Shown: one piece after another, positions 1-31,772 of the stretch
Layout of the letters: every line of letters starts with the position of its first letter
How positions within the stretch are numbered: the first letter of the stretch is position 1
Assembly (NCBI RefSeq): GCF_963675165.1
Contig: NC_087389.1
Span: forward strand, 6,000,621 to 6,064,620
Source: Halichondria panicea
Taxonomy: Eukaryota > Porifera > Demospongiae > Suberitida > Halichondriidae
Direction of reading: 5' to 3'
Length of the DNA stretch: 64,000 nucleotides
Notes under the pieces: model-generated
The model's database searches: none
What the model was told of the DNA's origin: nothing
What the model saw: the letters and a program-made list of their open reading frames with translations, nothing else
Translations under genes and position numbers: made by a program

Positions 1-925
1 ATATCGGGTGGCAGCATGTCGAGAATCTCTTGATTCCTCTTGATAAGAGTATCCAAGCTCTTGAGCTGATCTAAGAATGTGCCCACAAAGATCATCTTTG
101 GCTTCTTGTCTTGTGAGGTATGGGACTCAATGGATCGAATGAGACTCTGAAGTGTCTCCCCGAGGGTCATGTGAGATGCATGAGGACTACCAACAAGCTG
201 CCCATCCTTGTAGTACTCGTCAGAAGGGAAACTGGAGAGTTCGTCAATCAAACGCAGGACTATCAACGCCACCGAAATGTGCTTGATGAAGAGAGGGCTG
301 ATGTCGTGGAATTGGGGTTGTCCACCGCAGTCGGTAACGTACACCCAGTTGGAATCAAACAGTTCTCCTTCTTGCTGGTCACTGCTCGACAGTTGGTCAG
401 TTCCCTGTGTGGCTGGCTTCAGCTCTTCTGCCACACCACTCACTACACTTGCTATCACTTTATTGATAGCTCTGTCCAACCTTCTTGCAGAGCCAGAAAG
501 TGCGACGGAATCGTTGCTCGATGGAGTCGATTTGAAACCAGAAATTGGCTCATCAGAAACAGAAATTAGCTCGGTTGTGGTCATCTTCTTCAAGCTCTCG
601 GCAACCCTTAATGCCGAGGATGGATCGGTGCTTTCTTTTGGTAGTTTGGCGATGATTTGAGCTAGTAGCTTACGCAGCTTTGGCTGAGACATCTCTTCCC
701 AGCCTCTTCCAGTTGACCTGAATTTTGCATTGGACACGGGTCGAATGCGTACTGGCTTTTCCATACAAGAAGTGCTGTCTCGCTGTAGTGGAGGGGGCTT
801 GTCAGTTAGCAGGTGCTTGAGGTTGGTCTTCCCTGTTCCCGCCGGTCCAAACACGAGCATGTTGACAATGTTGACCAAGACGTGTCCGTGCTTCATCCCC
901 TCATCAAACAATCGCTTCGCTGATT
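1..925 (-). CDS. GTPase exon of gene 1, open at the window edge
   Basis: Open reading frame running off the left edge. It starts after an acceptor (TTTAG, bases 930-926). Order of motifs: ESAKRLFDEGMKHG leader, Walker A GPAGTGKT, a Ser/Thr-rich insert, DCGGQPQFHD (G3), a hydrophobic strand, then PKMIFVGTFLD (G4 region). The matching exon of gene 2 (22630-24720) starts in the same phase with the same ESA..LFDE..K.G leader, but the two proteins are clearly diverged, unlike the upstream introns. Confidence 0.75.
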
Positions 926-3900
926 CTAAACAGGATGTGTGAATGTAACTAACTATATGCAATACTTCACAGCTAGGTGACAAGATGAACTACCGTAGAA
1001 ACTGGATTATTAGCGCATGCGCTCATGCATGGGGTCAATAGCAGAGCTCTATATGCTTATATTCGAGAATGCGCCTATAATGCAGTCATATTCTAGCCCC
1101 ACCCAGTAACCGGATGTCTCTGGGACGAGTGATGTTTCAAGGCAAGCTAACTCGATCTATATCACAATTATATGTTACAGTTCATTTTACACTTCATTTT
1201 AAATTCATATCGCTTATAAAAATATTCATATTGACCAAGAACTTGAAACAAAAGGACGTCTCACATTCTCTCAGCATGATCAGACATGGTAACAGCATGC
1301 CCAGAGAGTCCTTCCAGATGGATATCACCAGCTATAATTATAGCTACCATGCACTGTACAAGCTAGCTCATAGGAATCAATTCAAAATGTTCACCAAATA
1401 ATTATTATTATCTTTCGCATGCCATGTAAACGTAGCGGGTAATTTTCATAAGGTAAAAATTAGTTCAACTTGAACACGGTGATGTTCGTGAGTCAAAATG
1501 TTCATTGCCTGCACTGCATTGCATGCGTTCCAGTAAACCACGCCTAGGTCAGCTTGCCCACGAAAATAATAACGAATATCTTACCCCAAAAAAATTATCC
1601 GCTATACGGTAGTCTGTCAATTGGCTTGGCATAATCAACCCTACAGGTTAGGTAGTCCATTGGTTTGGATATAGCCTCAACAAAACAAGTTATTAGTGTT
1701 TCAGATTTTGATGTTAAAGTCTCCCACACGCCTCAGGGTTAATTGTATTGACATTCTGCGCAACCAAGACAGTGTGAAAACACAATACAATAACAGTACT
1801 TGTGGTCACACATACATGTTGTATTGTAAACAAAATTACATCAAATCATACGTAACTTGGTGCATGTACAATAGAGTACATTGAGTGTGGAAGGCAACTA
1901 GGTAGCTCTAGTTATACAATAGAAAAGCATTTAATGGAAGGACCGGCATCGATCTGCTACAAACAATGGATACAGCAGCTGTACGTACATAAACCTTTAA
2001 AGCTTGCTAAGTGAGTGACCCACCAATGACAGGGAATGTGGCTGATCATTACAGGAATGTGCTATGAATGAATTGACATGATGATGTCACTAAGTACACA
2101 GTACAACGTTACCAACCCAATCAGTCAATCACAGTGACTGTACATGTATGTGCGCATATATTGATGCAATGTCTGATAAACAGTATCCATAATTAATTAT
2201 AACACATGTACCACAGTGTGTGGAATATAGTCAAAGGAACAATGCTCTAGCTTGATCAAACCAGGACCACATGGAAGGGAGTAAGCAACTAATACACACC
2301 ATATAAATACATGTCAGGTATGTCAAACACACTTGTAGTGATGAAATTTGTGTGTGTTGACCAAGGCTAGGTGGGCTAATCATAGATTAAGTCTACGCAT
2401 GTGCTTGTGCAATTAATCCATGATTTGAGTGGTTGCATACAAACCTTATTAAGGTAATGAAAGAGGTGAAGCCAACAGTTTAATAAGAGCGGGATTACCA
2501 ACATTGAAACATTGAGACAGCTCGCAACAGCTGTACGTACACACTACATGTATACAGTAGAGGACAAATTAAAGTTTATGATGCGTTTGTTAACCCGAGG
2601 CACTCCACGGGCTATAGTAGTCAATCTGTGTGTCTGTGGATATGAGTCTATACTCACCCGGATGTGATAGCACTGTATTGGTACCATGGATAGCCTCAAC
2701 ACAACAAGGTTTTATAATATTAAAGGTTAAAGTTCTGTTGTCGAGCAAAAGCTAAAAAGCATGAACTGCACTGCAAGATTTACACGTGACTTTGACTCGA
2801 GGCTGTAAACGTATAGACCTCAAACTAACGCCGAGGGTTTGCACTTCAGTTTGATTCTGTTGCACAAACAAAATAATTGTTTTTGTGCATATGCGCTCAA
2901 GCTTGCAATATATAGGTACTGAGAGCAAAAACATTTTAACTTTCCTCGTAAATAATTGGAAAATGCAGAGCGGGATTACAAACATTGTACAATGGATTTT
3001 GTACGTACAGTCTACTAATAACTATAGTCACGGTAGAGGACAAATTAACGTTTCTGTTCTGTTTGCATATAATTATAGTCTCTGCGTTTGTGTACGTTGA
3101 TTCTGTTGCACAAGCCAGTGGGAAATGCAGTAGGAAAGCGAGCGGAAACATTTGAACGCCCAAGCACAGGAAGCCACACCCACTTTCCTGCGCATGACAG
3201 GTGTGGTCACTAAACGTACAAAAGCTCAATCTGAATACCTAGTACTGCTCACTGCTTATGAATAGCTCCACTTTAGCTTATACTATAAGGCCTAGAGGGG
3301 TGCTGATCTCATAGCTGGATAAGCAAAACAATTGTTTTTGTGCATGTGCAATCAAGCTTGCAATATCAAACCACTAATCATATTCATAGTAATTAAGGCT
3401 GATAATGTAAACACAGTATTACTAAACCATGCACAGGTGGTACAGTCAAATTCCTCAGTCACCAAATATTCCAGTTATATGGTACTACCGTATAGCGCGA
3501 AATTTTCGAGGGGCTTAATTTTCGCGGATTTCGTGGGTTGGAATTCTACACGAAAATTAAGTCCACGAAAAGTGTTCGTTAATAAGAATTACCTGCTATC
3601 ATGCAAATATTTAAAGGCGTGGCTTCCGGTAAGCAGTCATTCCGCGAACATTGTGCAACGAAATGGCTTTTAGAGGCCAATCCACGAAATATAAGTGCCT
3701 CGAAAATTTCGCGCTATACGGTATATGCGAACGAAACAGAAACTTTAATTTGGCAAGTTGCTACAGGTACGAGTGATTGCAACTATGAGCATCAACACTC
3801 ACTGTACTACAAAGTTCCTTGCTCCCCTCACCTTCCTTTCTCTGCCTCTCTGGCCTTCCTCGTATCTCAGTAATGTCATTCTCCTCGTCATGTATCTTCC

Positions 3901-6900
3901 CCTCCCAGTAGTGTATGTCTGAGACACACTCCTTGATCTCCTCCTCCACCACCTCCAGCTCTCTCTGGTCCTGGTCAGTGATGTCACCAGACAGTCTCTG
4001 TTGGAGGGCAGCTCTTCTCTGGGGGAGTAAAGAATATATATACGACTGAATGAACATTCCACCAAATAGAACATGCAGCTGATACAAATCACTACTGCAC
4101 GTTATAAGGTTAACAAATTGCGTACAATCCACATAACAAAATATAAAGGTCAGCAACCACCAACCTATTCAATCAGTAAAAGTGGACTTATAAAACATAC
4201 ACAAAGGTAGACAAAAAGCAACCATTCATCATACAATGGACAGTACATGTACACACATTGTCGTTCTGCTAGACTACGTCTACCACTCTTACCACGAGAG
4301 TAGTAAGTGCAACTGTCAACACTCACCGTCTCATGACTCTTCAGTTCACTCTCTTTCTTAGCCTTCATCTGGACAAGGTGAACAAGACAAGAGTGATTAG
4401 ACTGTGTGTTTGTGGTCACACATTATGAGTTGTCTATAGGTGTAGCTACGAGGGTCAGGTAAGGATATGAGACTATTACAAACTGAATGCACATGAGGTG
4501 TACGGTATGTTTGCCAACATTGTTTGACTCACTTTCTATTGTTCCAGATATTCAGTAACCATAGAAATGTATGGAGAGAAAAGAATATAATCACAAACCT
4601 GTACACTATGATATCAATAATTTATATTACACGGCATGTACTCACACGTACAACTCAAACATTACTGACACAAGTACAGTCACAAGTCAGTGCAGTGTCC
4701 CGCTCACCTTCTGTTTAGTCCAATGAGACACCAGCGTAAGACATACATGGAAACAGAGAGAGGGGGATGATGGTAGGAGCAGTGAGTGCATTCATACATG
4801 TCTGTATACTGTAACTTACATTCTGTTGTTCCAGTAATCATTAGCAGTAGTCACATTAACAAGCACGGACATGTAGAGAAATGAACATGTTCAAATACAC
4901 GAATGCATTCACACATGTATACATCAATTATTGCAAGTACACGTCTGTACAGCATGAAACTATCAAGAGCAGTACCAATCTAAACTAGAGCACTAAAGTG
5001 CAAACCCTCGGCTGGTGACATGATTATAAAGAAACCAGAAATATAATGCAGTGCATTGCCATAATATAGTGATGTTGTTATCATGTATGACTTGCACAGC
5101 AACTCAGGAGCAATAAAACTAAACCAGACTGGAGGCATGCTGAAACATTTGAGAACAGGTAGTGGTACTATAGATATATACACTGTGGATTAGGATCAGA
5201 GCAAAGAAGCCTGGAGTCTCAGAGAAGTATGGCTCAGGTCCTGCATCGAGTAGGATCCCAGTCAGCTAAAGCAGTATAGGAGCTATAATTCAAGCTTTCT
5301 ACTTTAGTGACCCTGTTCCATTGTTCTTGGTACAGGATCACTTCAGTTATAAGTCAAGTTCTGTTCAAGCTACATTTTGCTCGCTTTTATTAGACAACGA
5401 AGCTTTTAACACAGAAAGGTACCACTATCAAAAGTACTAACTTGTTGTATGGAGGCTACCCATGCTGTATAAACGCAGTGCTAGAACATCCAAGTAAGCA
5501 GACCCAGTCACAAAGCTTGTTCAAGCTTCTTAGCTTTTGCTCGACAAAGAAGCATTAACATCAAAAACTGCCACTATTTAAACCAAGATATTGTTGTGTG
5601 AAGGCTATCCATGCTGTAAACGCAGTGCTGTGGTACCCAGGTGAGTAGATATACCTGTGACAAACAGACAAACCAACATACTACTATACCCGTGGCCGCC
5701 CGCGCGCGCCTCGGGTAATAAAGCCACACAATTTCTGCCTTCATGCAGTAGACTAATTACATGTACACAAGTAAGTCTAGTTTGCCATTAAATATACAAT
5801 GAACAAACTACACAGCTATAGCGCACACTGACAATAATAAACTCACGTGCTGTTGTTGAGTAACAGTCCACAGAGGGTACATGTGCATGAGGAGAGGGAT
5901 ATGAACACACTGGTAGTAACTCAGTACACACACTGGCTAGTACACACACAGGTACTTAGTACTAGCAATGGCAGATAATGGAAGGGTCAGTGGGTGGGTC
6001 AGTGAAAGGGATGGTAAACGGTACAACAAGCATCTTACATGTACAACTTTGATACGTATGATTTTGTTTGTCGTACAATACAACACGTGCACTCCATGAG
6101 ACACACACACAATCACAACATACCTCAATGTAACGCTGAGACACACATCAAATGGTACATGTGAGGGAGAGATTTAATCTTAACACACATACAATACATC
6201 AGATCAGTTGAACGCTGGTGTGTATGGGACCATAGATAGAGTAGAAGAGGGATTGGAAACGGAAGTACCCTCGAAGTACCATCCGTGTATCTCCGCGGTT
6301 TTAATCGAGGCTTACTTTTTAACACGAGGGCTAAACATGAATAATTCATGAGAATTGTTTTGCTCTCTGTAAGAAGTCCACGAGCAGTTCTGCTGCTAAA
6401 CATCAACTTTCTCTAATACTTGAGGCCATTTGGGACACAGGACACTATTTAGTTACAAAGCCTTAGCTATATCAAAGGTACTATAGGAACACAAGCATGA
6501 AAAAGTGCTCTGTGTACCTTCACGACAATCGAGATTATATTTTCTTTGTTTCCAATTGATACCTACTATTAGGGGGCATGTGATTCAGTAATGGGGGTAG
6601 CTCTGAGATGTATGCTTTGGACACAATAAGTTTCCCGGGCTTTTGCGGGAGTTATGGAAGAGATACACGGATGGTCCCAAAGCCACTACGTAGACTTCAT
6701 TGTAAAACATCACGTGAATCACTTCCGTTTCCAATCCCTCTTCTACTCTATCTATGATGGGACTGACTACACATAGCAACAAGTGGAATACATCTAGACC
6801 TAAGAAGCTCACCTTCTACAGTAGTCCAAATCAGTGTGAGGTCCAACATAGGAATGAGTGTGTGCATGGGAAGAGACAAACACGATAATGTACCAACTTA

Positions 6901-9900
6901 GATGCATATTCTATGAATCAACGAAAGTATTAAAAGTACAACCTAATAAGTTTTGTGGGCCTCGGCTAATACCAAGTTGGCAATATGCAAATTAAGAGAT
7001 AAAGACATTTTACAATTAGTGTAGGAGTTCCTATAGTAACCATTAAAATAAGTGTACACGTGCAAACACAACTTACACGCTGTTGATCCAGAGAGGGAGA
7101 ATCCACAGGGCAAACACGTGGGAAGATAGTAAATGAATGATTACGAGGTTGAATGTGATCATACTAAATATTTCCCTATATAACACTATGGCACTGCACA
7201 CACACAAGAGTAATAATGGGGAAGTAGAAACATCACAGAATATGCAACAGACACTAAATACTCTGACAACACACACCAACTTACAGTCTGTTGTTTCAGA
7301 TGGTCAGTCAAAGGTGAGGTGGAGATGCATGAAATGGAAGGAAGAGAACATTAGTGCAGTGATACAGTACACTGGTGATTGCATGACACAGGGGAGGGGA
7401 AACAATTGTGGACAGCCAAACATGCAGACTCAAACACTTGACCGAATAGCCGCGGTTGACGCTTTGAAGCGTCAATACCTGAATAGCTGGTAGCCGCGGT
7501 TGACGCTTTGAAGCGTCAACCGCACATTACTCTACCATAGATAGTAGAGGGACTATACTATCTCTACTATCTATGACTCTACTCTTAATTAATTTGTGGT
7601 GAGCTACAACCTTCCAGAGCTCCACAGCTTTGCAAGGCTTCTCTCGAAGGTCAACAGAAGCCGTACTGAGTCCGATCACCATAGGTTAGCAATCAAAAAT
7701 TTGCTGAAATTTTCATGTGAAATTTGTATTTCAATATCAATCTCAAAGTGAACATACACTATAATAAATACAATTACAATTAATTCTATAGTACAACAAT
7801 GACTAAGAGGCCTCTGCACACAGGGGATGAGGTACTCCTAGGTATCCTGGATAGTAGTCACAGTGAGTAGACCTTCTCAGACCCATAAGATGGTGGTGGT
7901 TCCATGGCAGATAGCAGTGACGATAGTTTCACAGACCTGCATGAGGAAGAAGGAGTATTGCCAACCAAGCAGATCACCTCTAGAATCAATGGTTCTTACA
8001 CACAAGTAGCACAGAACCTGACAAACACCAGCCAACAAGCCAGCCATAAAGAATTGAATTTTAAATGTAACCTTTGGGGTGGTGCCTAAAAGATCAAAAG
8101 ATTATCATGCAATCAATACACACACTAAATTGAATAATAACATTCAGCCACATAATTATAATTGAATTGCTATAACAGACACCACACTAAAAATTGGGTA
8201 GATACATGTAACACAGCACTAACTCACAAGCCAACAAACCTAAAGAAGTATACTGAGAACAGCCCTACACAAAGTACAGTACATCTCATACAAGGGTGAC
8301 AAAAAATAATTATGAATCATGCAACCTTAGACATAATTATGTATAGGCTCCCACAAGCAAACTTACATGCAATGGCACTCATAGGCACATATAAAGCAAT
8401 TGTGATCCTACAACAAACTGGGAGTTCATAAAAGATTCAACTTTGGGCACAGAAGAATTACAATGCATATCACAGGCAAACACACAAGCCAACAAGCCAA
8501 CTAATAACAAATTATGACCTAATCCTAGCTGGGGAGCATAACACAACCAACAAGCCTATTATGTTGGGAATAAAATGTCCTTACACAAGTAAACAGTACA
8601 CTCATAAGCCCAACAAGCCTTTGCTTTCCCCTGAAAAGGTCAGAACATTATTATGCAATCAACCACCATACATGTACACAGTGAGCCTAATGAGTAGTGA
8701 GCCTAATTGAGTAGTAGCCTAATTGAATTGTAACCTTGGAAGCAAGCAGAAACTTCACACAAGCCTAGGCATAAGAATTAACTTTGGCAGCACTGATAAT
8801 ATGTAAATTGTTAGCACATATAAAGTCTCATGCCACAGGAACACACAGGGGGCACACACCGCACGGGCGGGCGGGCACGCACACACACACATGCACGCAC
8901 ACACGCGGGCATCAATAGTGAATACACATTCAGCTATTAACAGAATACATTGTGGATGAGACCAACAGATAGCTAAGCATAACACCTTTACATTGCAACA
9001 CTGCTGAACTGCTGAGCGTACATATATAGGCTTCTGTATTTTAAACTCGGGCTTCAACACACTGCTGGAGCAAGTATACTTTACAAGCTACGTAGGTAAG
9101 CGTATAGTATTATCAGCTATATAGCTAATAATCATACGCACACAAAGCTTACCTCTAAAGTAATCTCTCGCTCTGTCCTTGGCTGGTTGACTCTTCGACT
9201 GTTCAGATAGAACTACAAGGTAGCTTGAAGAGAACTGTTACTGTTACTAAGGGGTGCATCTTTCTTTGCCACACTGAAACAAATAAATTGAATATCAAAC
9301 ACTGTACACTACACTCTAAAAACAGGCTCTAAACTAACTCAGCTTCTACACAAGTATACTTTACACACTCATAAGCTATCTAGGCAAGTGCATAAGCATA
9401 TTAAATCAGCTCAGAGGCTTCTGAAGGCTTATACTAGCTACATAATGCTTGCTATATACGCACACAAAGCTTACCTCTGAAGTGATCCCTTGCTCTGGCC
9501 CTTGGCTGGTTGACTGTTTCTTTGGAAACCAGGAGATCCTGACACAGTAACTACTGTAGACTACTTTGCTAAGAAGTTGAATAAAGAAAACTGTCACTGT
9601 TTCCAAGTTATGCATCTTTCTTTGCTAGAGGCGAATGCTGAAAAAGAGAAAATAATTTGAATATCAAACGTTGTAGACTACACTCTAAAAACAGGCTCTA
9701 AACTCACGAAGCTACTCTTCCAGTATATTTCACACACTCAGAGGCTATCTAGGTAGGTGGACAAGCATATTACATCAGCTCAAAAGGCTTATAAAGGCTG
9801 AACTAGGAAAATGATGATCGCTATACACACACAGAGCTTACTTGTGAAATGATCCTTCGCTGGGGCCTTGGCTGGTATACTCCTCCGTTCAAAACTTAGA

Positions 9901-10551
9901 GATCCTGGCAGAGTAGCTATTCTAGACTAGTTTGCAACAAAGTTGCCTGCAGAAAACTGCTACTGCTTCTTAGATACGCATCTTTCTTTGCTAGGAGCTG
10001 ATAATGAAAGTAATTTAAAATTAATTAGATTTTGGTTCCGCGGTGGGCGGTACTACATATGAAATCATAACCGCGGCTATTCGGTTAACCATGCATATAC
10101 TTTCAGGTACTATACTATACAAGTAGATCTACTGGTCTCAATTAAGGAATAGTATCACATTCAGTTATCCGTATGTGCTCTTTTTTACACTGTCTACCTC
10201 CTAACAACAAGTGCTCAGAGCACAAGCATGTCAGCTTGGTAGAATGTGATTGCACACAACGTACCTCAATCTTTTCCTGTTATCCATTCAAAGAGAGTGG
10301 TACATGTGGAGAGAACAACAACAAGAGATAAACACCTCACACTGACAGGGTAGAGTGTAGGCACTATACTGTGATGAATGAATGATGCCAAGTGTGTTTA
10401 TGGGTGGTCAACAAGTACATCTAGGCACTAGGAGAATGCACTGATCATTGAGTATCTATCTATCATGTGTATATCATACCCTTTCCCTATCAGTGAGTCC
10501 CTCCATCAACTGTGGGGAACTAGCAGCATTCAGTGTTGTAGATTCAGCCAT
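1..10551 (-). CDS. Gene 1: coiled-coil / Roc-like GTPase (3' end beyond window)
   Basis: Multi-exon gene joined by eye from GT-AG sites and reading phase. Exons in transcription order: 10480-10551 (ATG at 10551, 24 codons), 10265-10276, 7285-7287, 7077-7079, 6813-6815, 6124-6135, 5847-5849, 4820-4822, 4708-4710, 4533-4535, 4327-4368, 3832-4018 and 1-925. All junctions are phase 0 until 3832, which ends one base into a codon; that base (G) with the first two bases of the 925 exon makes GAA, so the join stays in frame. The last exon carries a P-loop (GPAGTGKT), a Roc-type G3 motif (DCGGQPQFHD) and a G4-like VGTFLD. The protein should be cytosolic. Family knowledge: Roc domains bind GTP; in ROCO proteins they precede a COR domain. 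The rest is inferred from gene 2. No disruption is visible within the window. Confidence 0.7.
1431..1612. repeat. Decayed MITE of the CCGTATAGCG family
   Basis: Opposed ends GTAGCGGGTAATTTTC (about 1433) and AATTATCCGCTATACGGTAG (ending about 1612) resemble the termini of the intact elements at 3488-3721 and 45612-45823. The same remnant is in copy B at about 25234-25410. Confidence 0.4.
1612..3480. other. Long intron with dispersed repeats
   Basis: Intron of gene 1, matched almost base for base by 25410-27290. Similar segments beginning with a TGGATAGCCTCAACA-like core occur at 1670-1760 and 2590-2760; the reverse complement occurs at 5400-5720. These look like a dispersed repeat family. 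I see no exon in this stretch. Confidence 0.45.
3488..3721. mobile_element. 234-bp MITE with TA target duplication
   Basis: Inverted ends CCGTATAGCGCGAAATTTTC / GAAAATTTCGCGCTATACGG, flanked by TA at 3486-3487 and 3722-3723. The empty site is preserved in copy B (about 27294), which has a single TA. TA duplication points to Tc1/mariner-type mobilisation. It lies in the intron just downstream of the gene 1 coiled-coil exon. Confidence 0.85.
3832..4018 (-). CDS. Coiled-coil exon of gene 1
   Basis: 187-nt exon between an acceptor (CCCCCAG) and a donor (GTGAGG). It encodes 62 residues beginning RRAALQQRLSGDITDQD and continuing as a charged, heptad-like helix rich in Glu/Lys/Ile/Val, with REL and VVEEEIKE motifs. 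The first 17 residues are identical to the gene 2 exon; the remainder differs at roughly a third or more of positions and is 5 codons shorter, through indels of 12 and 3 nt that keep the frame. Confidence 0.7.
4990..5722. repeat. Copy-A-specific block of dispersed repeats
   Basis: Absent from copy B, where GTACCAATC joins a TAAATAAACCCACACAATTT context (about 28560). It contains two partly overlapping copies of the dispersed repeat seen at 2590-2760 (around 5330-5480 and 5510-5720), ending in a GC-rich tract (GCCGCCCGCGCGCGCC). It could be an insertion in copy A or a deletion in copy B. It lies in the intron between microexons 5847 and 4820. Confidence 0.5.
6230..6757. mobile_element. 528-bp MITE, 5-bp target duplication (GGGATTGGAAACGG family)
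   Basis: Inverted ends of about 37 bp with one terminal mismatch; the left end opens CCATAGATAGAGTAG and contains GGGATTGGAAACGGAAGT. TGGGA flanks it at 6225-6229 and 6758-6762. Copy B keeps the empty site (GTGTATGGGACTGACTAC, about 29050). A relative with the same core and also a 5-bp duplication is at 38101-38868; a decayed one is at 33113-33612. Confidence 0.85.
7442..10084. mobile_element. 2.6-kb inverted-repeat element in the intron after microexon 1
   Basis: Ends CCGAATAGCCGCGG and CCGCGGCTATTCGG are inverted; copy B lacks the element. Flanks are TTGA (left) and TTAA (right), while copy B reads TTGATTAA, as if both target copies stayed after excision of a TTAA-type element. Inside are two copies of the palindrome TTGACGCTTTGAAGCGTCAA near 7457-7522, a stretch with repeated AACAAGCC words (8030-8640), and three tandem units of about 340 bp (about 9130, 9470, 9830) that each carry a minus-strand exon-like segment ending in a donor (SQPAKDRARDYFR type). 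Confidence 0.6.
7904..8089 (+). CDS. Small acidic ORF inside the 2.6-kb element
   Basis: 61-codon ORF with an acidic start (MADSSDDSFTDLHEEEG). It may be the first exon of an element gene, but no family is recognisable and no donor decides its end. Coding status is uncertain. Confidence 0.2.
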   Translation: MADSSDDSFTDLHEEEGVLPTKQITSRINGSYTQVAQNLTNTSQQASHKELNFKCNLWGGA

Positions 10552-20412: not shown

Positions 20413-23400
20413 CTGCATGAAGAAATAAAGACATCACTAAAACGACAATTTACAATTTTCGTGATAGTCTTATTCAGCACTAAAAATGACACACAGGTGA
20501 ATAAAAAAAATGCACACTGAAAATAGTAACCTACAATTTTCTTGACAGCTTATATCATTCACTAAAAATGGCGAATAAAAAAAATGCACAAACAGTTACC
20601 TGTGATACTGTCAGCCAAATTGATGAGCTTCACTGTGGGCTTTTTGAGACCATCTGACAGGAGACTCCATGTTACATGTTGTGTACTCAGGAGCTTGGCC
20701 AACATTTCACGCAAGCACGATACATTATTTCCACGATGCTCGCTATTGATGTTGGTGAGAACAGGATGAGTTAGACCTAGAGCCAATCCCAGATTGAACC
20801 AGTAAGGGCTGGCACTTTCATGTAGTTTCTCGTAAACATGTTGTAGATCGTTGATTGTCAAAGCCTGTACAAAAACAACAATCAACAGGGTTTCATTTGG
20901 TGGGGATTGCCCCCTTGGAAATACCTTCTAGAGGAAACTCAATGGGAATACAATTGAGGGGTTCTGGTGAACAATATTCTTAACAGGGCAGATATAGTAA
21001 TGAATTTCTGGGGTCACGAACCCTCCAGATATATACATGTCATCAACACCCTAATATCATGCACGTGCACCATTTGCTCCCCTTACCAAAATGTCAGGAG
21101 GATAAGTAGATACAAGATTTAGAGTACTGCCTACCTTGTGTACGTTCAGCAGGTGAGGAAATTTCTCCGCGATTAGAACGATGTCACTCTCAGGGATTTC
21201 TTGATTGAGTTGTTGGTCTCTCACTCCAGTCTTCTTACACACATCTTCCATTACTGTAACAGAGGACAATTCACCTCAAGAAAAATATTGGGCCAAAAAG
21301 TAAAAGTATTCTTTATAAGCGACATAAAAAACTTAATTACAGCAACCATTGGAGATATTTTAGGACACAATAAACTGTTAAGTCTGAGTTGGTGCTACAA
21401 TTACATCAACTACACAGTATCAACTACACAGGCACTGAATTATACACGAGGATTAACATGATCAGGCACAGGACACATTAATGATCATAACTTGTCGACC
21501 AAACGGCACTTTCTTACTGGTATGTTGATGTGGATCACTCGTTGTATTGACCACATGTTCCATTGCAGGAGACAAGTTGTCTGAGGAGGGAAATTTTATA
21601 ATAAGAAAGTGAGTACAAAACAAAGCTTACCAGAAGTAATGCACTGATCATGATCATGTACTTCCGTCTTCAAGCACACATCTTCCATTACAGAATTACC
21701 TGAGGAAAAGCAGACACAGCTCATGTAGTACGTCTGTCAATTAACATGCTCACTCAAACAAGGCTGTTGATCACTCATTCCAGATCCAGTGCTACTAACA
21801 ACATTGGCCAGAGTCCCACATTGATTGACTGAAAACAACAAGAATTACTATAAATTGACATCATGCGCATTAAACCCTGAACCCTCATACATATACAGGT
21901 ATATTATACACGTACGGTGTATGTGCTTACTAGAGTATTGCTGCTGATCACTCTTTCTCTCAGTCTTCCTACCAGTACCTCCCGTAGCAGACGATGGTTT
22001 TCCTAATAGAAGAATTTGAGGAGAAACTATATAATTGGTAAAATAATACTTATCCACCGGAAACTTCCTTACTGGTATATTGATCACTCATTCTACACAC
22101 AGTTTCCATTACAGGGGACGATGGACCTGAGGGGGATAATACAATGATACGAAAATACTTTGTTATACTAATATAGTACACAAATATAAAAGCTGCAAAT
22201 ATTTACGTATAGTGCTACATAACTACCGGAGTATTGCAGCTGATGTCTCTTTCTTTCAGTGTTCACCTCTGAGGAGGCTTCACCTATAACAAAGGAAACA
22301 TGATAGTTAGGTAATTAACATATTCAGTATTAAGTAACCTAATAAGTGATAGTAAAGCAATGTATGTCATGTACTTACCAGATTGTTGCTGCTCATCACT
22401 CAATGTCATCTTTGTAGACATGTCTCCCGTAACAGAGGATAACGCACCTAATTGAGGGGGAGAGATAATAAACTACATGCATAATTAGAGACAATACATG
22501 AAACTATAAATACACTGTAATGCATGTACTGCTATCACAATGCCCTACACAGAATGTATACCATAGTTGCTATTCATCTACCCCCTCCCCGGAAGTTACA
22601 AGGAAAGGAAATATAAAGTAATAACTCACCTTCCGCAGGAATAATTGCCGTACCTAACCAAACAGTATGACTCGTCTTGAGATCCCCATCTAGATCAAAA
22701 TCTTCAGAACAGCACCACAGTTTTGTCGATAAGTGGATATCAGCAAAATGGCGTTTGCCTTGTTGTGTTGCTCCTTCGTGAGGGCAGAAGATGCTAATGA
22801 CTGGCTTGTCGTTGTTGTAGTGAAGTGCATCAGAAGCAGCATCTACACCTTCAAGGACACTGGCTCTAACTAGAGGACACACGGTCAGAAGCACATGTGG
22901 TCGGGCTTTGACATGGACCTCCATATAAGAGAAGGAATCAATCAGTGTAACGCTACCAGGAGAATCGGGTAACCGAAACTTGACACAGTTCCTAGCTAAA
23001 AGAACCGGCTTTCCAGAAGGAAGACACACTATCCACCCACACTTCTTCATGAGGAACACCACTAGACAACAGAAGACCCCACATCGAATACAGCCACTGA
23101 CAAATCGGATGAGAAGAGGATCAGCTGAGGAAGTGAATACACGATGGTCCTCTAGCTCAGAGGGTGGAACAGATCTGAGGAGACTGGGCATGAGAAACTC
23201 CACTTGAGAGAAAGAGCAATCAACTCGACCAAGTAGTGGGATGGTGAGAGGGGCTATTATCAGAAGCTCCATCATGATTGCTATCATATCAGCAGGTGTG
23301 AAAAGGCCGTCTTCGTAATGCTTCTGGAACTCTTCCGATTCGAGCATATCAATAGTAAAAATACCTTGATCTCTGAACTTGAGCTATTTTGCAGCCTTGG

Positions 23401-26400
23401 CAGAAGGACGTTTTCTTTGATCCCTCAGGGAGACAGCATGTTGTGTTAACTCACTAACTTTGTCTAGTGGGACTTGAGGATCCACAAACACAGTGTGGGG
23501 CAGGATGTGTGGGTAGTAGTGGACAATGCACATGTCATTGAAGTAGTCGAGAGCAGCATCCAATGCAGATGGATGGAATCCAAGCTGTTGAGCCAAAGCG
23601 ATACACTCACTCTTACTAAGGATACCTCTTTTCATGATCTTGCAAAGCTTTTGTAGAGCTAACTCGAGGATGAACCACCACAGGGGAACTTTGAGGTCGA
23701 ATGTAGGCGAATTTTCCACAGCTTTCCGAATTTTTTTGGCAACCTCTTGTGCATTTTCATCACGACTGCAAGCATTGACGGTGAATATCACCTGTTTCAA
23801 TGGCAGATTGCTGTAGATGACTTCTTCTTTCAGTTCAGGAGGCAAAGCATCAAGCAGGGCTTGGTTTTTCTTGTCGATAACTTTTTGATCTTTGATTTTA
23901 TCGGAGAAAGTGCCCACAAAGATGGGGCGTGGCGTTTTCCCATCCCTCTTGCAGGAGAGAAAGGATCGCAGTAAACTCATATTGGTTTCCAGATAGGAAA
24001 GGTGAGATGGAGATGAGGGACCGACTGGCTTTCCATCCTTGTACAAGTCGTCGTGGGGATAATCTGCAAAATCATCAGTGAGCCTGGAAACAAACAGCCC
24101 TGCTGAAGCATGTCGAATGAAGAGAGGGGCCACATCGTGAAACTGAGGCTGTCCTCCATTGTCGGTCACACGCATCGTTTTCGTACCAAACAGTTCTTTG
24201 CCTTCAGTTGAGGAGATTGAGGCTTCTTGTTGTGACGGTGTTGACACCATAGCTTCAACGACTAACGCGACAACATCTTCGATTGCTTGCTGCACAGGAG
24301 AAACACTCTCTTGAGAAGGTGGGATTGAAGTAGCTTCGGTTGCTGCACTGGTACTGGCTTCAGTGGACAATTCCTTGAGCCTGGTCTGAAGGTCACTAGG
24401 TAGCTTGTCACGAGAGCTCTGGGGTAGATGCTGAATGGCCTTTGCCAACATGTTGACCAAATCCTCTTCACTTACTTCCTCCCATTTGTTGTCAGAACCC
24501 TGGAAACGACCCTGAAAAAGGAGATTGGTGACTGGTCGAACGTGGGCTATTCTATCTCGACAAGGAGTACTGTTTCGTACTTCTGAAGGTGGATTGCCAA
24601 GCAAGAGATTCTTTGTGGCTGATTTACCGCTACCAGCTGCACCCATGAGTAGGAGGTTGATGTTGCGAAGAATAACGTATCCATCCTTCATGGCCTCATC
24701 AAAGAGATGCTGCGCAGACTCTGTGATTAAAATTGCACAACTAGCTATAATTATATTGAATATTTACGCCAGACAAAAAATTTGATTACTTTTTTAGAAC
24801 CGATGCAGGTAGGAAAAATATGCGCTCATGCATGGGGTCAATAGCAGATGCTTATATTCGAGAATGCGCCTATAATGCAGTCATATTCTAGCCCCACCCA
24901 GTAACCGGATGTCTCTGTGACGAGTGATGTTTCGAGGCAAGCTAACTCGATCTATATCATAATTATGTTACAGTTCATTTTACAGTTCATTTTAAATTCA
25001 TAATTATTATAATTTATTATAAAAATATTCATAAATATTGAGCAAGAACTTGGAACAAAAAGACGTCTCACATTCTCTCAGCATGATCAGACAAGATAAC
25101 GGCATGCCCAGAGAGTCCTTCCAGATGGATATCATCAACTATAATTATAGCTACCATGCACTGTACAAGCTAGCTCATAGGAATCAATTCAAAATGTTCA
25201 CCAAATAATATATTATCTTTCGCATGCCATGTAAACGTAGCGGGTAATTTTTGTGGGGTAAAAATTCGTTCCACTCGAACACGGTGATGTTCGTGAGTCA
25301 AAATGTTCATTGCCTGCACTGCATTGCATGCGTTCCAGTAAACCACGCCTAGGTCAGCTTGCCCATAAAAATAATTTACCCCACCAAAATTATCCGCTAT
25401 ACGGTAGTCTGTCAATTGGCTTGGCATAATCAACCCTACAGGTTAGGTAGTCCATTGGTTTGGATATAGCCTAAACAAAACAAGTTATTAGTTTTTCAGA
25501 TTTTGATGTTAAAGTCTCCCACACGCCTCAGGGTTAATTGTATTGACATTCTGCGCAACCAAGACAGTGTGAAAACACAATACAATAACAGTACTTGTGA
25601 TCACACATACATGTTGTATTGTAAACAAAATTACATCAAATCATACGTAACTTGGTGCATGTACAATAGAGTACATTGAGTGTGGAAGGCAACTATAGGT
25701 AGCTCTAGTTATACAATAGAAAAGCATTTAATGGAAGGACCGGCATCGATCTGCTACAAACAATGGATACAGCAGCTATACGTACATAAACCTTTAAAGC
25801 TTGCTAAGTGAGTGACCCACCAATGACAGGGAATGTGGCTGATCATTACAGGAATGTGCTATGAATGAATTAACATGATGATGTCACTAAGTACACAGTA
25901 CAACGTTACCAACCCAATCACTCAATCACAGTGACTGTACATGTATGTGCGCATTATATTGATGCAATGTCTGATAAACAGTATCCATAATTAATTATAA
26001 CACATGTACCACAGTGTGTGGAATATAGTCAAAGGAACAATGCTCTAGCTTGATCAAACCAGGACCACATGGAAGGGAGTAAGCAACTAATACACACCAT
26101 ATAAATACATGTCAGGTATGTCAAACACACTTGTAGTAATGTAATTTGTGTGTGTTGACCAAGGCTAGGCGGGCTAATCATAGATTAAGTCTACGCATGT
26201 GCTTGTGCAATTAATCCATGATTTGAGTGGTTGCATACAAACCTTATTAAGGTAATGAAAGAGGTGAAGCCAACAGTTTAATAAGAGCGGGATTACCAAC
26301 ATTGAAACATTGAGACAGCTCGCAACAGCTGTACGTACACACTACATGTATACAGTAGAGGACAAATTAAAGTTTATGATGCGTTTGTTAACCCGAGGCA

Positions 26401-29400
26401 CTCCACGGGCTATAGTAGTCAATCTGTGTGTCTGTGGATATGAGTCTATACTCACCCGGATGTGATAGCACTGTATTGGTACCATGGATAGCCTCAACAC
26501 AACAAGGTTTTATTAAAGGTTAAAGCTTTGTTGTCGAGCAAAAGCTAAAAAGCATGAACTGCACTGCAAGTTGGCCTAGATGTACACGTGACTTTGACTC
26601 GAGGCTGTAAACGTATAGACCTCAAACTAACGCCGAGGGTTTGCACTTCAGTTTGATTCTGTTGCACAAACAAAATAATTGTTTTTGTGCATGTGCGCTC
26701 AAGCTTGCAATATATAGGTACTGAGAGCAAAAACATTTTAACTTTCCTCGTAAATAATTGGAAAATGCAGAGCGGGATTACAAACATTGTACAATGGATT
26801 TTGTACGTACAGTCTACTAATAACTATAGTCACGGTAGAGGACAAATTAACATTTCTGTTCTGTTTGCATATAATTATAGTCTCTGCATTTGTGCTGATT
26901 CTGTTGCACAAGCCAGTGGGAAATGCAGTAGGAGGTACTGAGAGCGAGCGGAAAACATTTGAACGCCCAAGCACAGGAAGCCACACCCACTTTCCTGCGC
27001 ATGACAGGTGTGGTCACTAAACGTACAAAAGCTCAATCTGAATACCTAGTGCTGCTCACTGCTTATGAATAGCTCCACTTTAGCTTATACTATAAGGCCT
27101 AGAGGGGTGCTGATCTCATAGCTGGATAAGCAAAACAATTGTTTTTGTGCATGTGCAATCAAGCTTGCAATATCAAACCACTAATCATATTCATAGTAAT
27201 TAAGGCTGATAATGTAAACACAGTAATCACTAAACCATGCACAGGTGGTACAGTCAAATTCCTCAGTCACCAAATATTCCAGTTATATGGTACTATATGC
27301 GAACGTAACAGAAACTTTAATTTGGCAAGTTGCTACAGGTACGAGTGATTGCAACTATGAGCATCAACACTCACTGTACTATAAAGTTCCTTGCTCCCCT
27401 CACCTTCCTTTCTCAGTCTCTCCACTGCTTCTCCTCGTATCTCAGCAATCCCCTTCTCACTGTTATGTATCCTCCTCTCACACCATTGTATCTCTGAGAC
27501 ACACTTTTTGATCTTCCCCTCCACCTCCTCCAGCTCTCCCTGCAGTAGTCTCCGGTCCTGGTCAGTGATGTCACCAGACAGTCTCTGTTGGAGGGCAGCT
27601 CTTCTCTGGGGGAGTAAAGAATATATATACGACTGAATGAACATTCCACCAAATAGAACATGCAGCTGATACAAATCACTACTGCACGTTATAAGGTTAA
27701 CAAATTGCGTACAATCCACATAACAAAATATAAAGGTCAGCAACCACCAACCAGTAAAAGTGGACTTATAAAACATACACAAAGGTAGACAAAAAGCAAC
27801 CATTCATTATACAATGAACAGTACATGTACACACATTGTCGTTCTGCTAGACTACGTGTACCACTCTTACCACGAGAGTAGTAAGTGCAACTGTCAACAC
27901 TCACCGTCTCGTGACTCTTCAGTTCACTCTCACACCTAGCCTTCGTCTGGACAAGGTGAACAAGACAAGAGTGGGTTAGACTGTGTGTTTGTGGTCACAC
28001 ATTATGAGTTGTCTATAGGTGTAGCTACGAGGGTCAGGTAAGGATATGAGACTATTACAAACTGAATGCACATGAGGTGTACGGTATGTTTGCTAACATT
28101 GTTTGACTCACTTCCTATTGTTCGAGATATTCAGTAACCATGGAAATGTAGGGAGAGAAAAGAATATAATCACAAACCTGTACACTATGATGTCAATAAT
28201 TTATATTACACGGCATGTTCTCATACGTACAACTCAAACATTACTGACACAAGTACAGTCACAAGTCAGTGCAGTGTCCCGCTCACCTTCTGTTTAGTCC
28301 AATGAGACACCAGCGTAAGACACACATGGAAACAGAGAGAGGGGGATGATGGTAGGAGCAGTAAGTGCATTCATACATGTCTGTATACTGTAACTTACAT
28401 CCTGTTGTTCCAGTAATCATTAGCAGTAGTCACATTAACAAGCAGTAGGACACGGACATGTAGAGAAATGAACATGTTCAAATACAGGAATGCATTCACA
28501 CATGTATACATCAATTATTGCAAGTACACGTCTGTACAGCATGAAACTATCAAGAGCAGTACCAATCCTAAATAAACCCACACAATTTCTGCCTTCATGC
28601 AGTAGTACATGTACACAAGTCAGTCTAGTTTGCCATTAAATATATAATGCTCAGCTAGCGCACACTGACAATAATAAACTCACGTTCTGTTGTTGAGTAA
28701 CAGTCCACAGAGGGTACATGTGAGGAGAGAGGGATATGAACACACTGGTAGTAACTCAGTAGTCACTGGCTAGTACAGACACAGGTACTTAGTACTAGCA
28801 ATGGCAGATAATGGAAGGGTCAGTGGGTGGGTCAGTGGAAGGGACGGTAAACGGTACAACAAGCATCTTACATTTACAACTTTGATACATATGATTTTGT
28901 TTGTCGTACAATACAACACAAGCACTCCATGAGACACACACACAATCACAACATACCTCAATATTACTCTGAGACACATCAAATGGTACATGTGAGGGAG
29001 AGATTTAATCTTAACACACATACAAGACATCAGATCAGTTGAACGCTGGTGTGTATGGGACTGACTACACATAGCAACAAGTGGAATACATCTAGACCTA
29101 AGAAGCTCACCTCCTACAGTAGTCCAAATCAGTGTGAGGTCCAACATAGGAATGAGTGTGTGCATGGGAAGAGATAAACACGATAATGTACCAACTTGAG
29201 ATGCATATTCTATGAACCAACAAAAGTATTAAAAGTACAACCTAATAAGTTTTGTGGGCCTCGGCTAATACCAAGTTGGCAATATGCAAATTAAGAGATA
29301 AAGACATTTTACGATTTCCTACAATTAGTGTAGGAGTTCCTATAGTAACCATTAAAATAAGTGTACACGTGCAAACACAACTAACCCACTGTTGATCCAG

Positions 29401-31772
29401 AGAGGGAGAGTCCACAGGGCAAACACGTGGGAAGATAGTGAATGAATGATTACGAGGTTGAATGTGATCATACTAAATATTTCCCTATATAACACTACGG
29501 CACTGCACACACACAAGAGTAATAATGGGGAAGTAGAAACATCACAGAATATGCAACAGACACTAAATACTCTGACAACACACACCAACTTACATACTGT
29601 TGTTTCAGAGGGTCAGTCAAAGGTGAGGTGGATATGCATGAAATGGAAGGAAGAGAACATTAGTGCAGTGATACAGTACACTAGTGATGCATGACACAGG
29701 GGAGGGGAAACAATTGTGGACAGCCAAACATGCAGACTGAAACACTTGATTAACCATGCATACTTTCAGGTACTACTATACGAGTAGATCTACTGGTCTC
29801 AATTAAGGAATAGTATCACATTCAGTTATCCGTATGTGCTCTTCTTTACACTGTCTACCTCCTAACAACAAGTGCTCAGAGCACAAGCATGTCAGCTTGG
29901 TGGAATGTGATTGCACACAACGTACCTCAATGTCTTCCTGTTGTCCATCCAGAGAGAGTGGTACATGTGGAGAGAACAACAACATGAGATAAAACACCTC
30001 ACACTGACAGGGTAGAGTGTAGGCACTATACTGTGATGAATGAATGATGCCAAGTGTGTTTATGGGTGGTCAACAAGTACATCTAGGCACTAGGAGAATG
30101 CACTGATCATCTATCACTGTTGGGTGCATATCCATTACTTTTCAGGGAAAATGTTATGGAGTAATCACAATGACTTAATTGCCTTTTCATGGGCAAATCA
30201 TTGATAACACCTATTAAAATTAAGAATTTCAAGGATAGTACATACCATGAAATGTGAAATATCCATTAAAATTCATATGCATTTCACAGCGCGATAGACC
30301 AGCTGAAAATGTTGCACACCCATGAAAAGCAGATGGAAAATCAAACTACGGCATCATTGCTTTTCATGGGAAATTCATGGATACATCTATTAAATTTTAG
30401 AATTTCAAAGATTGAGCATTGTGAAATATCCATTAAAATTTAATAATAGTTATAAAGTGAATCAAAATTTACATACTCATCAAATGAAACTTAAAACGTA
30501 CATGCTATGGCCACGAGCATTTGTATGCCATAATAATTATAACATAACATAATATCTTCCTGTCTCTTTTTCCTCTCCCAGTGCACATGTAGAAGGGTCG
30601 TTCTTTTCGTTATCTCTCACAACCAATATTTCGAGCCCTATGTGCATATAAAAAATTTCTATTGATTTGCATTCATGAGGGATAACAGTGAATACAATAG
30701 ATTTACCTGTATAAACATAATTATTATGAGACTGCATGTGTATAATTATTGTAGAGATTCACCAACACACACAGAACACTAATAAACAGGTAGGTATTAA
30801 CTGTTGTCTACTGCTAGCCAGAACAACTGCCTGGAGAAACTCACTTATAATAAGAAGCCACTCTTGGTCCCTCCTTATTTCAGACTACTTTGACTCAAGT
30901 CTCTCTAGTAGAATCCTAGGCTGCAGCTGCAAAGTATATATAATTATAGGTATTTTACTGTTGGATGTGTACAGCTATTATACTGCCTGGAGAAACTCAC
31001 CACTTGCTATCCTGGTCATGACACCATTCTCTGTTTCATCCTCTTTGAGCCTTTGTTCCCTGGTATACGTAGTGGCGGCGTACATGGTATCCTCTGAAGT
31101 TTCCCTGCTTTAATTTTTAGACTCTCAGTTCTGGAGCTATAGCAACTAGTAACTGCGCATGCGCATAGCAACTGCTGCACTGGGCTTTATATAGAAATTC
31201 TGAAAAAAGAAAAGAAAAGCAACAAAGTCTAAGACTTTAATGAGAACTCAATGGTCTTCTCTTGCTTTATGGAGGGGTGTCTGCAAGATCCACCAGACAT
31301 GATCCAAACTTTCTTATGTTGACTTAGATCTACTTGCTCAGTGCTCACATGATATTAAATTTAGGCCATAAATTGTTACCTGCTGCAATCATTATCAGGC
31401 CAAAAATTAATATTATTTTACTGTTAGTTTCATGGATTGAATAGAGTTGTCAAAAACAGCATACCCATCAAATCACCGTGAATACAACGTGAATACGAAA
31501 ATCATGGTGAACTAATTGTATTTTCATGGGTATGCTTTGATTTCACGATGTTTTACAGTTAAAGCTGTTATCAATGAAAAGTCTATGAAACATTATATAA
31601 TGAATGTTTCATTGGTTGCTACTACAATTAATTGCTTTTTCATTTGTGATTCAAAGGATATGAGGCCAGTAGTGTATATATCATGTGAATATCATACCCT
31701 TTCCATACTAGTGAGCCCATCCTTCATCAACTGTGGGGAACTAGCAGCATTCGGTATTGTAGATTCAGCCAT
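20171..31772 (-). CDS. Gene 2: coiled-coil / Roc-COR / death-domain protein, one in-frame stop
   Basis: Exons in transcription order: 31698-31772 (ATG at 31772), 29926-29937, 29594-29596, 29386-29388, 29111-29113, 28957-28968, 28684-28686, 28399-28401, 28287-28289, 28112-28114, 27905-27946, 27404-27605, 22630-24720, a series of short phase-1 exons (22379-22447 down to about 21135), 20600-20864 and 20171-20412 (TGA at 20171). Phases agree at all joins checked. Domains: polar N-terminus, coiled coil, Roc-like GTPase (GAAGSGKS, DNGGQPQFHD, GTFSDK), COR-like region, repeat linker, two death-like domains. TAG at 23384-23386 lies in frame inside the COR region, so this allele may be truncated, recoded or a pseudogene. 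Such architecture suggests a cytosolic GTP-switched signalling receptor (inference). Confidence 0.7.
20600..20864 (-). CDS. Death-domain exon of gene 2
   Basis: 265-nt exon with acceptor GTACAG and donor GTAACT. It opens ALTINDLQHVYEKLHESASP and includes YWFNLGLALGLTHPVLTNI, CLREMLAKLL and VTWSLLSDGLK: the W..LG..LGL...L..I / CL..ML..WL pattern of death domains, with the usual Trp replaced by His-Val-Thr-Trp. Phase 0 in, phase 1 out, matching neighbours. Confidence 0.8.
21135..22447 (-). CDS. Linker of gene 2 built from about eight tandem phase-1 exons
   Basis: Exons 22379-22447, 22227-22283, 22073-22126, 21931-22002, one at about 21771-21830, about 21645-21700, about 21520-21585, and about 21135-21275. 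Each starts two bases into a codon and ends one base into the next, so any one can be skipped or duplicated without frameshift. They share a theme: SS.V near the start, then SDQQ..S near the end (for example PSSPVMETVCRMSDQYT and KTERKSDQQQYS). The last adds a VCKKTGVRDQQLNQEIPESD helix leading to the death domain. Similar exons are at 48.4-48.9 kb. Confidence 0.65.
22630..24720 (-). CDS. Roc-COR exon of gene 2 with in-frame TAG
   Basis: 2.1-kb exon starting after acceptor ATCACAG. Walker A is GAAGSGKS; then a Ser/Thr/Glu-rich insert, G3 DNGGQPQFHDV, LLRSFLSCKRDGKTPRPIFV and G4 GTFSDK. The COR-like part includes PLWWFILELALQKL, ILSKSECIALAQQLG, LDYFNDMCIVHYYP and VFVDPQVPLDKV. After AKAAK comes TAG (23386-23384), and the same frame continues with LKFRDQGIFTIDMLESEEF to a donor at 22629. 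The read-through half has strong COR/C-lobe character, so the stop looks recent or suppressed. Confidence 0.75.
24830..27300. other. Long intron of gene 2
   Basis: Matches the copy A intron at 1025-3480. It contains the same decayed repeats and no exon that I can support; short minus-strand ORFs here are not conserved in frame. Confidence 0.4.
27404..27605 (-). CDS. Coiled-coil exon of gene 2
   Basis: 202-nt exon, 67 residues, starting RRAALQQRLSGDITDQD and continuing LLQGELEEVEGKIKKCVSEI, then a charged helix ending RLRKEG. It is 15 nt longer than in gene 1 but ends in the same phase, and its flanking introns are nearly identical to gene 1. Confidence 0.75.
28112..29937 (-). other. Chain of nine candidate microexons in gene 2
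   Basis: Positions match those of gene 1 one for one: GAAGACATTGAG (29926-29937, EDIE), TAT (29594-29596), TGG (29386-29388, donor GTTAGT), GAG (29111-29113), AGTAATATTGAG (28957-28968, SNIE), AAC (28684-28686), GAT (28399-28401), AAG (28287-28289), GAA (28112-28114). A 14-codon exon follows at 27905-27946 (TKARCESELKSHET). Acceptors and donors are conserved while eight of the nine coded segments differ from gene 1. Confidence 0.55.
30120..31670. repeat. Extra DNA in intron 1 of gene 2
   Basis: Copy A has only about 200 bases between its first two exons; here there are about 1.7 kb. It contains repeated motifs around TTTTCATGGG and CATTAAAATT (30130-30440) and an inverted pair (GCATACCCAT near 31460, ATGGGTATGC near 31527), suggesting one or more decayed inverted-repeat elements. 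No gene seen. Confidence 0.5.

Follow-up and report, generated by a model that had tools for sequence, protein, structure and literature searches.

The question raised by this locus is whether a chain of splice sites, each enclosing only three or twelve bases, represents true exons, and what such exons would encode. The locus lies in a 64,000-nt stretch of DNA from Halichondria panicea (the window), which carries a Roc-GTPase gene (gene A) and its paralogue (gene B), both on the minus strand, to which all coordinates of the two genes refer. From a comparison of 40 loci belonging to a family of at least 47 in this species, it is considered highly likely that genuine exons, one or four codons long, are present at these sites and that they encode a hypervariable helix face on ROCO proteins. 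The basis is comparison at the sequence level: fixed exon lengths and splice signals, hypervariability restricted to codons, absence of stop codons, variability confined to one half of a helix, and recurrence of this pattern in an exon that is not interrupted.

The original prediction described seven sites of the form YAG, three bases and a donor, and two with twelve bases, arranged in order between a first exon and an exon of 14 codons; this arrangement was confirmed exactly, with all sites in phase 0. Exon 1 of gene A (MAESTTLNAASSPQLMEGLTDRER; 10480..10551), seen in the 23 loci having the EKIE site and variable in its final codons across paralogues, is followed by the 12-nt exon EKIE (10265..10276), with hypervariable codons 1 and 2 and a conserved ATT G/AAG. 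The 3-nt exons T (ACT, 7285..7287), R (CGT, 7077..7079) and K1 (6813..6815; AAG in gene A, GAG in 31 of 34 genes) precede the second 12-nt exon, RYIE (6124..6135), again with codons 1 and 2 hypervariable. The series ends with four 3-nt exons: H (CAC, 5847..5849), N (AAT, 4820..4822), K2 (AAG, 4708..4710) and K3 (AAA, 4533..4535). T, R, H and N are hypervariable, encoding 13 amino acids in 29 genes, 10 in 34, 11 in 37 and 11 in 38, respectively, and K3 encodes K, E, R or N, and V once.

Downstream lie the 14-codon exon (4327..4368), most variable at codons 1, 4 and 5, and exon X (3832..4018; 187 nt in gene A, 181–202 nt in the 35 copies extracted from the 40 loci). The 2100-nt Roc-COR exon starts in the window (1..925), runs beyond the window start (to -1174) and is followed by eight further exons to the stop codon. 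Altogether, gene A comprises 21 exons and an open reading of 1144 residues, in the order hypervariable helices, Roc-COR GTPase and C-terminal helices.

Between exon 1 and the 14-codon exon, seven YAG-NNN-GTRAG sites were counted, compared with a mean of 0.66 and a maximum of 4 in 300 dinucleotide shuffles; when a 38-nt AG-free zone was required, all seven remained, compared with a shuffled mean of 0.07 and a maximum of 2. Over the whole window, the minus strand contained 13 AG-free sites of this form, all within the two arrays (7 + 6), and the plus strand contained none, with a mean of 0.4 in 10 whole-window shuffles. The array of gene B counts six because its R site has the donor GTTAGT. The predicted AG-free zones upstream of the sites proved real, with medians of 39–128 nt at the nine sites across paralogues; minima in single copies were 10 nt (EKIE) and 15 nt (T), and a single negative value, obtained as the minimum for R, is an artefact of the locus edge.

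The 40 loci consisted of genes A and B, 20 loci taken at 9.5 kb and 18 taken at 3.4 kb. Many of the 3.4-kb loci may end before the upstream sites, and absence of a site there was not counted as loss. Locus L025 has no K1 site and was dropped at that position, and at the R sites of L029, L032, L042 and L044 only the donor side is visible. All aligned sites were exactly 3, 12 or 42 bases long, in 22 paralogues at the first site rising to 39 at the 14-codon exon, and in this site-by-site alignment of gene A with the 39 paralogous loci mean flank identity to gene A was 96–99%. The length of exon X, measured likewise, varies by whole codons.

Positions 1 and 2 of the eight variable micro-codons differed in 58–77% of gene pairs. 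At T, R, H and N, the pairwise difference was 51–64% in the codon, compared with 0.4–0.9% in the 25 nt upstream. Over all ten sites, the differences ranged from 0.4 to 7% upstream (25 nt) and from 1 to 27% downstream; small indels, which an ungapped count does not accommodate, probably explain the high values on the downstream side. An unbiased scan of 2268 columns in 21 complete arrays placed all 16 first and second positions of the eight micro-codons among the top 26. In seven of the eight micro-codons, variation was lower at the third base than at the two before it (at T, 0.07 vs 0.71–0.74); codon 1 of EKIE was the exception (0.69).

At the 12 most variable codons, gene pairs showed 6180 non-synonymous vs 43 synonymous differences. 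No stop codon was found among 1048 codons; at the 12 most variable codons, base frequencies predicted 17.4 stops in 416. Two sites behaved differently despite a splice context identical to that of the variable sites: K1 was E or K in 34/34 genes and K2 was AAG in 38/38.

When the exons are joined, the variable residues of the first 20 are numbers 1, 2, 5, 6, 8, 9, 12, 13, 15 (weakly), 16, 19 and 20. Plotted as a helical wheel, all 12 lie no more than 90 degrees from a single direction and all eight constant ones occupy the opposite half, a split matched by none of 100,000 random placements. When the array is analysed together with the 14-codon exon and the end of exon 1, its entropy profile has a peak at exactly 100 degrees per residue, and this peak was equalled by 0 of 20,000 residue shuffles and by 3 of 5,000 exon-order shuffles. 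The joined sites had been described as extending a charged coiled coil; the helix stands, amended to one with a conserved and a hypervariable face.

A corresponding pattern is carried by exon X, which lacks such introns: the same heptad, I-Q-x-x-E-x-x-I-H-x-x-E-N-x-I-A, appears as contiguous hypervariable heptads (IQxxExxIHxxENxIA) in a helix. The variability of exon X matched that of joined residues 1–20 without gaps (r 0.85, permutation p 2e-4). The structure model, which begins at the 14-codon exon, predicts that this exon and the beginning of X together form a helix (residues 2–23), which a loop connects to a second, long one (29–89). Counted from the loop, the variable residues of joined 1–20 would stand at heights 21–40, and those of X at 22–36 in gene A or 26–40 at the usual length. 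Given these matching heights, the variable faces of both helices could form one surface. The single-codon exons of the Roc-GTPase gene are very probably real, and together with the four-codon exons they very probably account for the greater part of helix 1's variable face.

The assignment of gene A to a Roc-GTPase, as originally made, is upheld by the predicted structure, which shows an LRRK2-like Roc-COR fold. A Roc G domain and a COR domain follow each other in tandem, as expected of ROCO proteins, and on the modelled fold the family is a member of the ROCO family. In 36 homologues, the P-loop and switch II residues G103, G108-K109-T110, D275 and G277-G278-Q279 are invariant or at least 90% conserved. 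The Pfam match to Roc lies below the curated cut-off (E 0.097 in the window, 0.22 in P0002) and COR is not listed; relatives gave matches likewise below the cut-off (P0080 Roc, E 1e-3; P0083 COR-A, E 0.003). A death domain was matched in the relatives P0082 (E 3e-7) and P0083 (E 1e-4), and Pfam scans of the window and relatives contained neither NACHT nor ankyrin matches.

The following mechanism is proposed. The microexons would be spliced in together, and the 15 residues that they contribute would form the central part of helix 1 in an N-terminal helical hairpin. This hairpin would precede the Roc-COR (ROCO) GTPase, which is followed by C-terminal domains that are helical and possibly of the death fold. 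Intron removal would proceed stepwise in the 5'-to-3' direction, since there is no room on a 3-nt exon for both splice-site complexes at a time and the introns are short (109–329 nt in the array of gene B). The variable faces of both hairpin helices, at the same height, would form one binding surface; ligand binding there would switch the Roc-COR GTPase and pass a signal through the C-terminal domains, serving to recognise pathogens or to tell self from non-self. The observed pattern would result from selection that diversifies the residues while the introns stay similar across copies. The proteins are probably immune or allorecognition receptors.

Several observations weigh against this reading of the sites as true exons of a variable receptor face, some of which are given below with the explanations that they favour. 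Third bases vary too (0.07–0.52 at seven micro-codons and 0.69 at the eighth), and when the count is limited to the seven single-codon exons, the expected number of stops falls to 3.45 in 248 codons (P 0.03). The introns are highly alike overall (mean difference just 3.6%), so that conservation of the splice sites is by itself weak evidence. The joined array occurred in none of the 169 database proteins returned, all of which were scanned for the pattern, and no retrocopy was detected, the joined 159-nt query matching exon 1 alone (40 of 61 candidates scored). In gene A, the death domain is weak in the last exon (E 0.17) and unmatched in the exon before it, and the single-sequence fold of the last exon gave six helices at low confidence (pLDDT 59). 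The function, finally, is drawn from architecture.

The sites might instead belong to longer exons or act as splicing decoys, with the gene beginning at the 14-codon exon. Database models P0002 and P0003 of gene A do start there, yet their initiating ATG, codon 1 of that exon, is a hypervariable codon that encodes methionine in 1 of 40 copies. For ALTERNATIVES, a longer open exon sharing the donor was sought within 300 nt upstream. Such in-frame exons are possible at EKIE (21/23 copies), R (19/28) and H (23/37), whereas none was found at K1 (0/27), RYIE (0/37), N (0/38) or K3 (0/38), and they are rare at T (1/27) and K2 (3/38). The original judgement that longer exons are a weak alternative therefore holds at six of the nine sites, where they are excluded or nearly so, and does not extend to EKIE, R and H. 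Since, moreover, the high variation ends at the AG and the GT and the variable residues follow a helix, this explanation is given very little credence. Hardly more can be said for mutation hotspots set by the splice context, or gene-converted introns with drifting codons, in either case without selection for diversity. Homogenisation clearly occurs, as the arrays of genes A and B are 92–96% identical in DNA vs 43% protein identity in their GTPases, and the variable codons are near linkage equilibrium even within one 12-nt exon. However, K1 and K2 are nearly constant although their AG-NNN-GT context is no different, which is evidence against a context-driven hotspot. Third bases are quieter in seven of the eight micro-codons, stops are absent, and exon X varies at the equivalent helix positions with no splice context at all.

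A stronger contender, although still an unlikely one, is alternative splicing of genuine microexons, by which a single gene would produce many versions of the helix, as has been reported for the NACHT-ANK genes of truffles. Besides this precedent, all units are in phase 0 and in-frame, and the pyrimidine content of the acceptors is low (0.42–0.64 vs 0.80 at the 14-codon exon), so that inclusion could be inefficient. Moreover, omission of all seven single codons removes exactly one heptad and keeps the register; this joint skip ranks 6 of 128 by the entropy profile and 1 over a shorter stretch, and 6 of the 128 combinations reach 90% of the best helix signal. On the other hand, inclusion of all seven gave the best register of the 128 combinations, any single skip reduced the signal to 61–77% of the best, and 122 combinations fell below 90%. 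The suggestion that optional inclusion changes the register one residue at a time is accordingly not supported; joint skipping of all seven is conceivable. The variability is already held by the gene copies, which makes splicing unnecessary for diversity, and the full height of the partner helix would be matched only with all exons included. Joint inclusion of true single- and four-codon exons is preferred.

Regarding the database models, 35 of the 104 proteins of the first search were inspected individually. Among the 169, a junction between the 14-codon exon and exon X is present in four alone (P0002, P0003, P0011 and P0017), and the remaining inspected models start downstream of the 14-codon exon. 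The NCBI-named model P0017, from the paralogous locus L046, splices from the H microexon's donor directly into the 14-codon exon, which hints at use of that donor; the three units between them were not found in the L046 copy. A query with the N-terminal protein returned 65 proteins, of which 62 are unspliced genomic frames running from the intron into exon X; among the others, P0118 lies at the GTPase exon, and P0168 and P0169 contain exon 1. Current database models omit the microexon chain, the most informative part of these genes.

Gene B keeps all nine sites (29937-28112), as had been reported for a paralogue at 28.1–29.9 kb. Its exon 1 (31698..31772) is followed by the micro-exons at 29937-29926, 29596-29594, 29388-29386, 29113-29111, 28968-28957, 28686-28684, 28401-28399, 28289-28287 and 28114-28112, the 14-codon exon (27905..27946), a 202-nt exon X (27404..27605) and the Roc-COR exon (22630..24720, ends placed by eye). 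An in-frame TAG at 23384-23386 within the latter suggests that this copy is broken, and gene B is possibly a pseudogene. Between the two genes, the codons differ far more than the introns, a point absent from the original prediction. The 92–96% identity was found in aligned blocks that cover the array and exon X and extend through the following intron until some 90 nt short of the GTPase exon; identity was 84% around exon 1 and 72–93% in the C-terminal parts (window 10481-1 compared with 30100-20000), and the introns of gene A carry extra insertions.

The close similarity of the array DNA, set against the divergence of the GTPases, points to homogenisation and module exchange, which seem to be active between copies. 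In addition, two further GTPase pieces on the contig match that of gene B at approximately 100% identity, which would fit an exchange of the GTPase exon. The codon at one site says almost nothing about the codons at the others. Introns acting as recombination cassettes that shuffle codons were considered and are not supported, as codon sharing in the site pairs inspected was close to chance even for neighbouring codons of one 12-nt exon; its link to flank similarity was weak if any (Mantel p 0.02–0.98, 11 sites). The idea that a duplicated heptad unit gave rise to the two 12-3-3-3 blocks was likewise rejected: it is hinted at by the exon-length pattern only, and the corresponding introns gave a few short weak matches and no convincing DNA similarity, high scores among them being due to overlapping windows.

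Variants of exon X in the database, clustered at 90%, differed in their overlap with the 35 of this genome. All 20 variants on ncbi-labelled contigs (two also labelled ena) were absent from this genome, and 19 of the 37 labelled ena only were present. If the ncbi-labelled variants derive from another individual, the repertoires would be almost wholly different.

Some further features were recorded. Copies with TGG as the R codon (gene B, 29388-29381; L023; L024) have the donor GTTAGT instead of GTAAGT, possibly a linked or compensating change. Five similar short exons (54–72 nt) lie between the Roc-COR and C-terminal domains of gene A, and by eye likewise in gene B; the run was placed at L047 and at window 22500-21500 (minus strand) and is perhaps a second repeated-exon array. 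Elsewhere in the window, on the plus strand, an open transposase frame of 329 aa was found at 12268-13257 (DDE_3, E 5e-29; weak helix-turn-helix, E 4e-4), as well as a reverse transcriptase fragment at 17749-18495 (RVT_1, E 2.5e-22), perhaps from a non-LTR element.

Schistosome micro-exon genes contain chains of small in-frame exons, each longer than one codon (6–36 nt). They resemble the sponge family in family expansion and raised dN/dS at the host interface and differ in encoding exposed or secreted parasite proteins (PMC4350168). A chain of seven 3-nt exons had been called exceptional, and this must be toned down, as the NACHT-ANK (nank) genes of Tuber melanosporum offer the closest precedent: three papers describe an expanded family with alternative splicing of codon-sized (3-bp) microexons (PMC4986451, PMC3689799, PMC10197012, citing Iotti et al. 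2012) located in the sensor part (PMC10197012). Plant and animal microexons of 1–15 nt are also documented in two reports, in which 1–3-nt exons are spliced in known genes and missed by annotation, with single 3-nt exons in mouse Ncam and Drosophila TnT; these examples are one or two adjacent exons, conserved rather than hypervariable (PMC8831610, PMC8042270). No report of a chain of 3-nt exons in an animal was found in the literature searched.

Truffle and sponge share an expanded receptor-like family, many codon-sized microexons and a proposed diversification of recognition, and on comparative grounds the sponge genes appear to possess the truffle-type chain of 3-bp in-frame exons. The sponge family differs in belonging to an animal rather than a fungus, in having a Roc-COR core and a helical hairpin rather than a NACHT core and ankyrin repeats, and in holding its diversity in gene copies, whereas alternative splicing is reported in the truffle. 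With its Roc-COR core and neither NACHT nor ankyrin, it falls outside the truffle nank type; it is similar in mode and not a member. It combines a Roc-COR core with single-codon exons and is not categorically new.

By its core, the nearest relatives are the LRR-ROCO candidate immune receptors of brown algae. They too are ROCO GTPases whose sensor is encoded by exons and diversifies, with selection acting on sites of a single face and a proposed immune role, but their units are 72-bp LRR exons, shuffled and alternatively spliced, with selected sites on the concave face; the main text mentions microexons zero times (PMC11378527). Fungal NLRs with hypervariable WD, ANK or TPR repeats are described as having few positively selected positions, mostly on one binding face, with concerted evolution between copies and a tie to cell death and non-self recognition; they differ in diversifying by repeats, not codon exons (truffle aside), and in their NACHT or NB-ARC core (PMC4986451). 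Recursive (ratchet) splice sites are similar in that an acceptor abuts a donor, implying stepwise intron removal. They are of zero length, however, and every aligned single-codon site of the sponge holds exactly three coding bases between AG and GT.

Beyond the single gene, it can tentatively be imagined that the family forms a sponge self/non-self system in which many specificity residues occupy exons of their own, individual repertoires are nearly disjoint and joint or partial skipping adds a further layer of diversity, an independent animal counterpart of the truffle receptors. The ROCO switch would then bear a tip of two helices, the variable residues of one coming largely from the single- and four-codon exons and those of the other from one ordinary exon. 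If the reading is true, exon architecture would match residue-level diversification strikingly, the codon being the fastest-changing part of a unit conserved in dozens of gene copies. An animal spliceosome would be capable of some ten joins in succession on exons this small, and the family would be a candidate molecular basis for self/non-self recognition in sponges.

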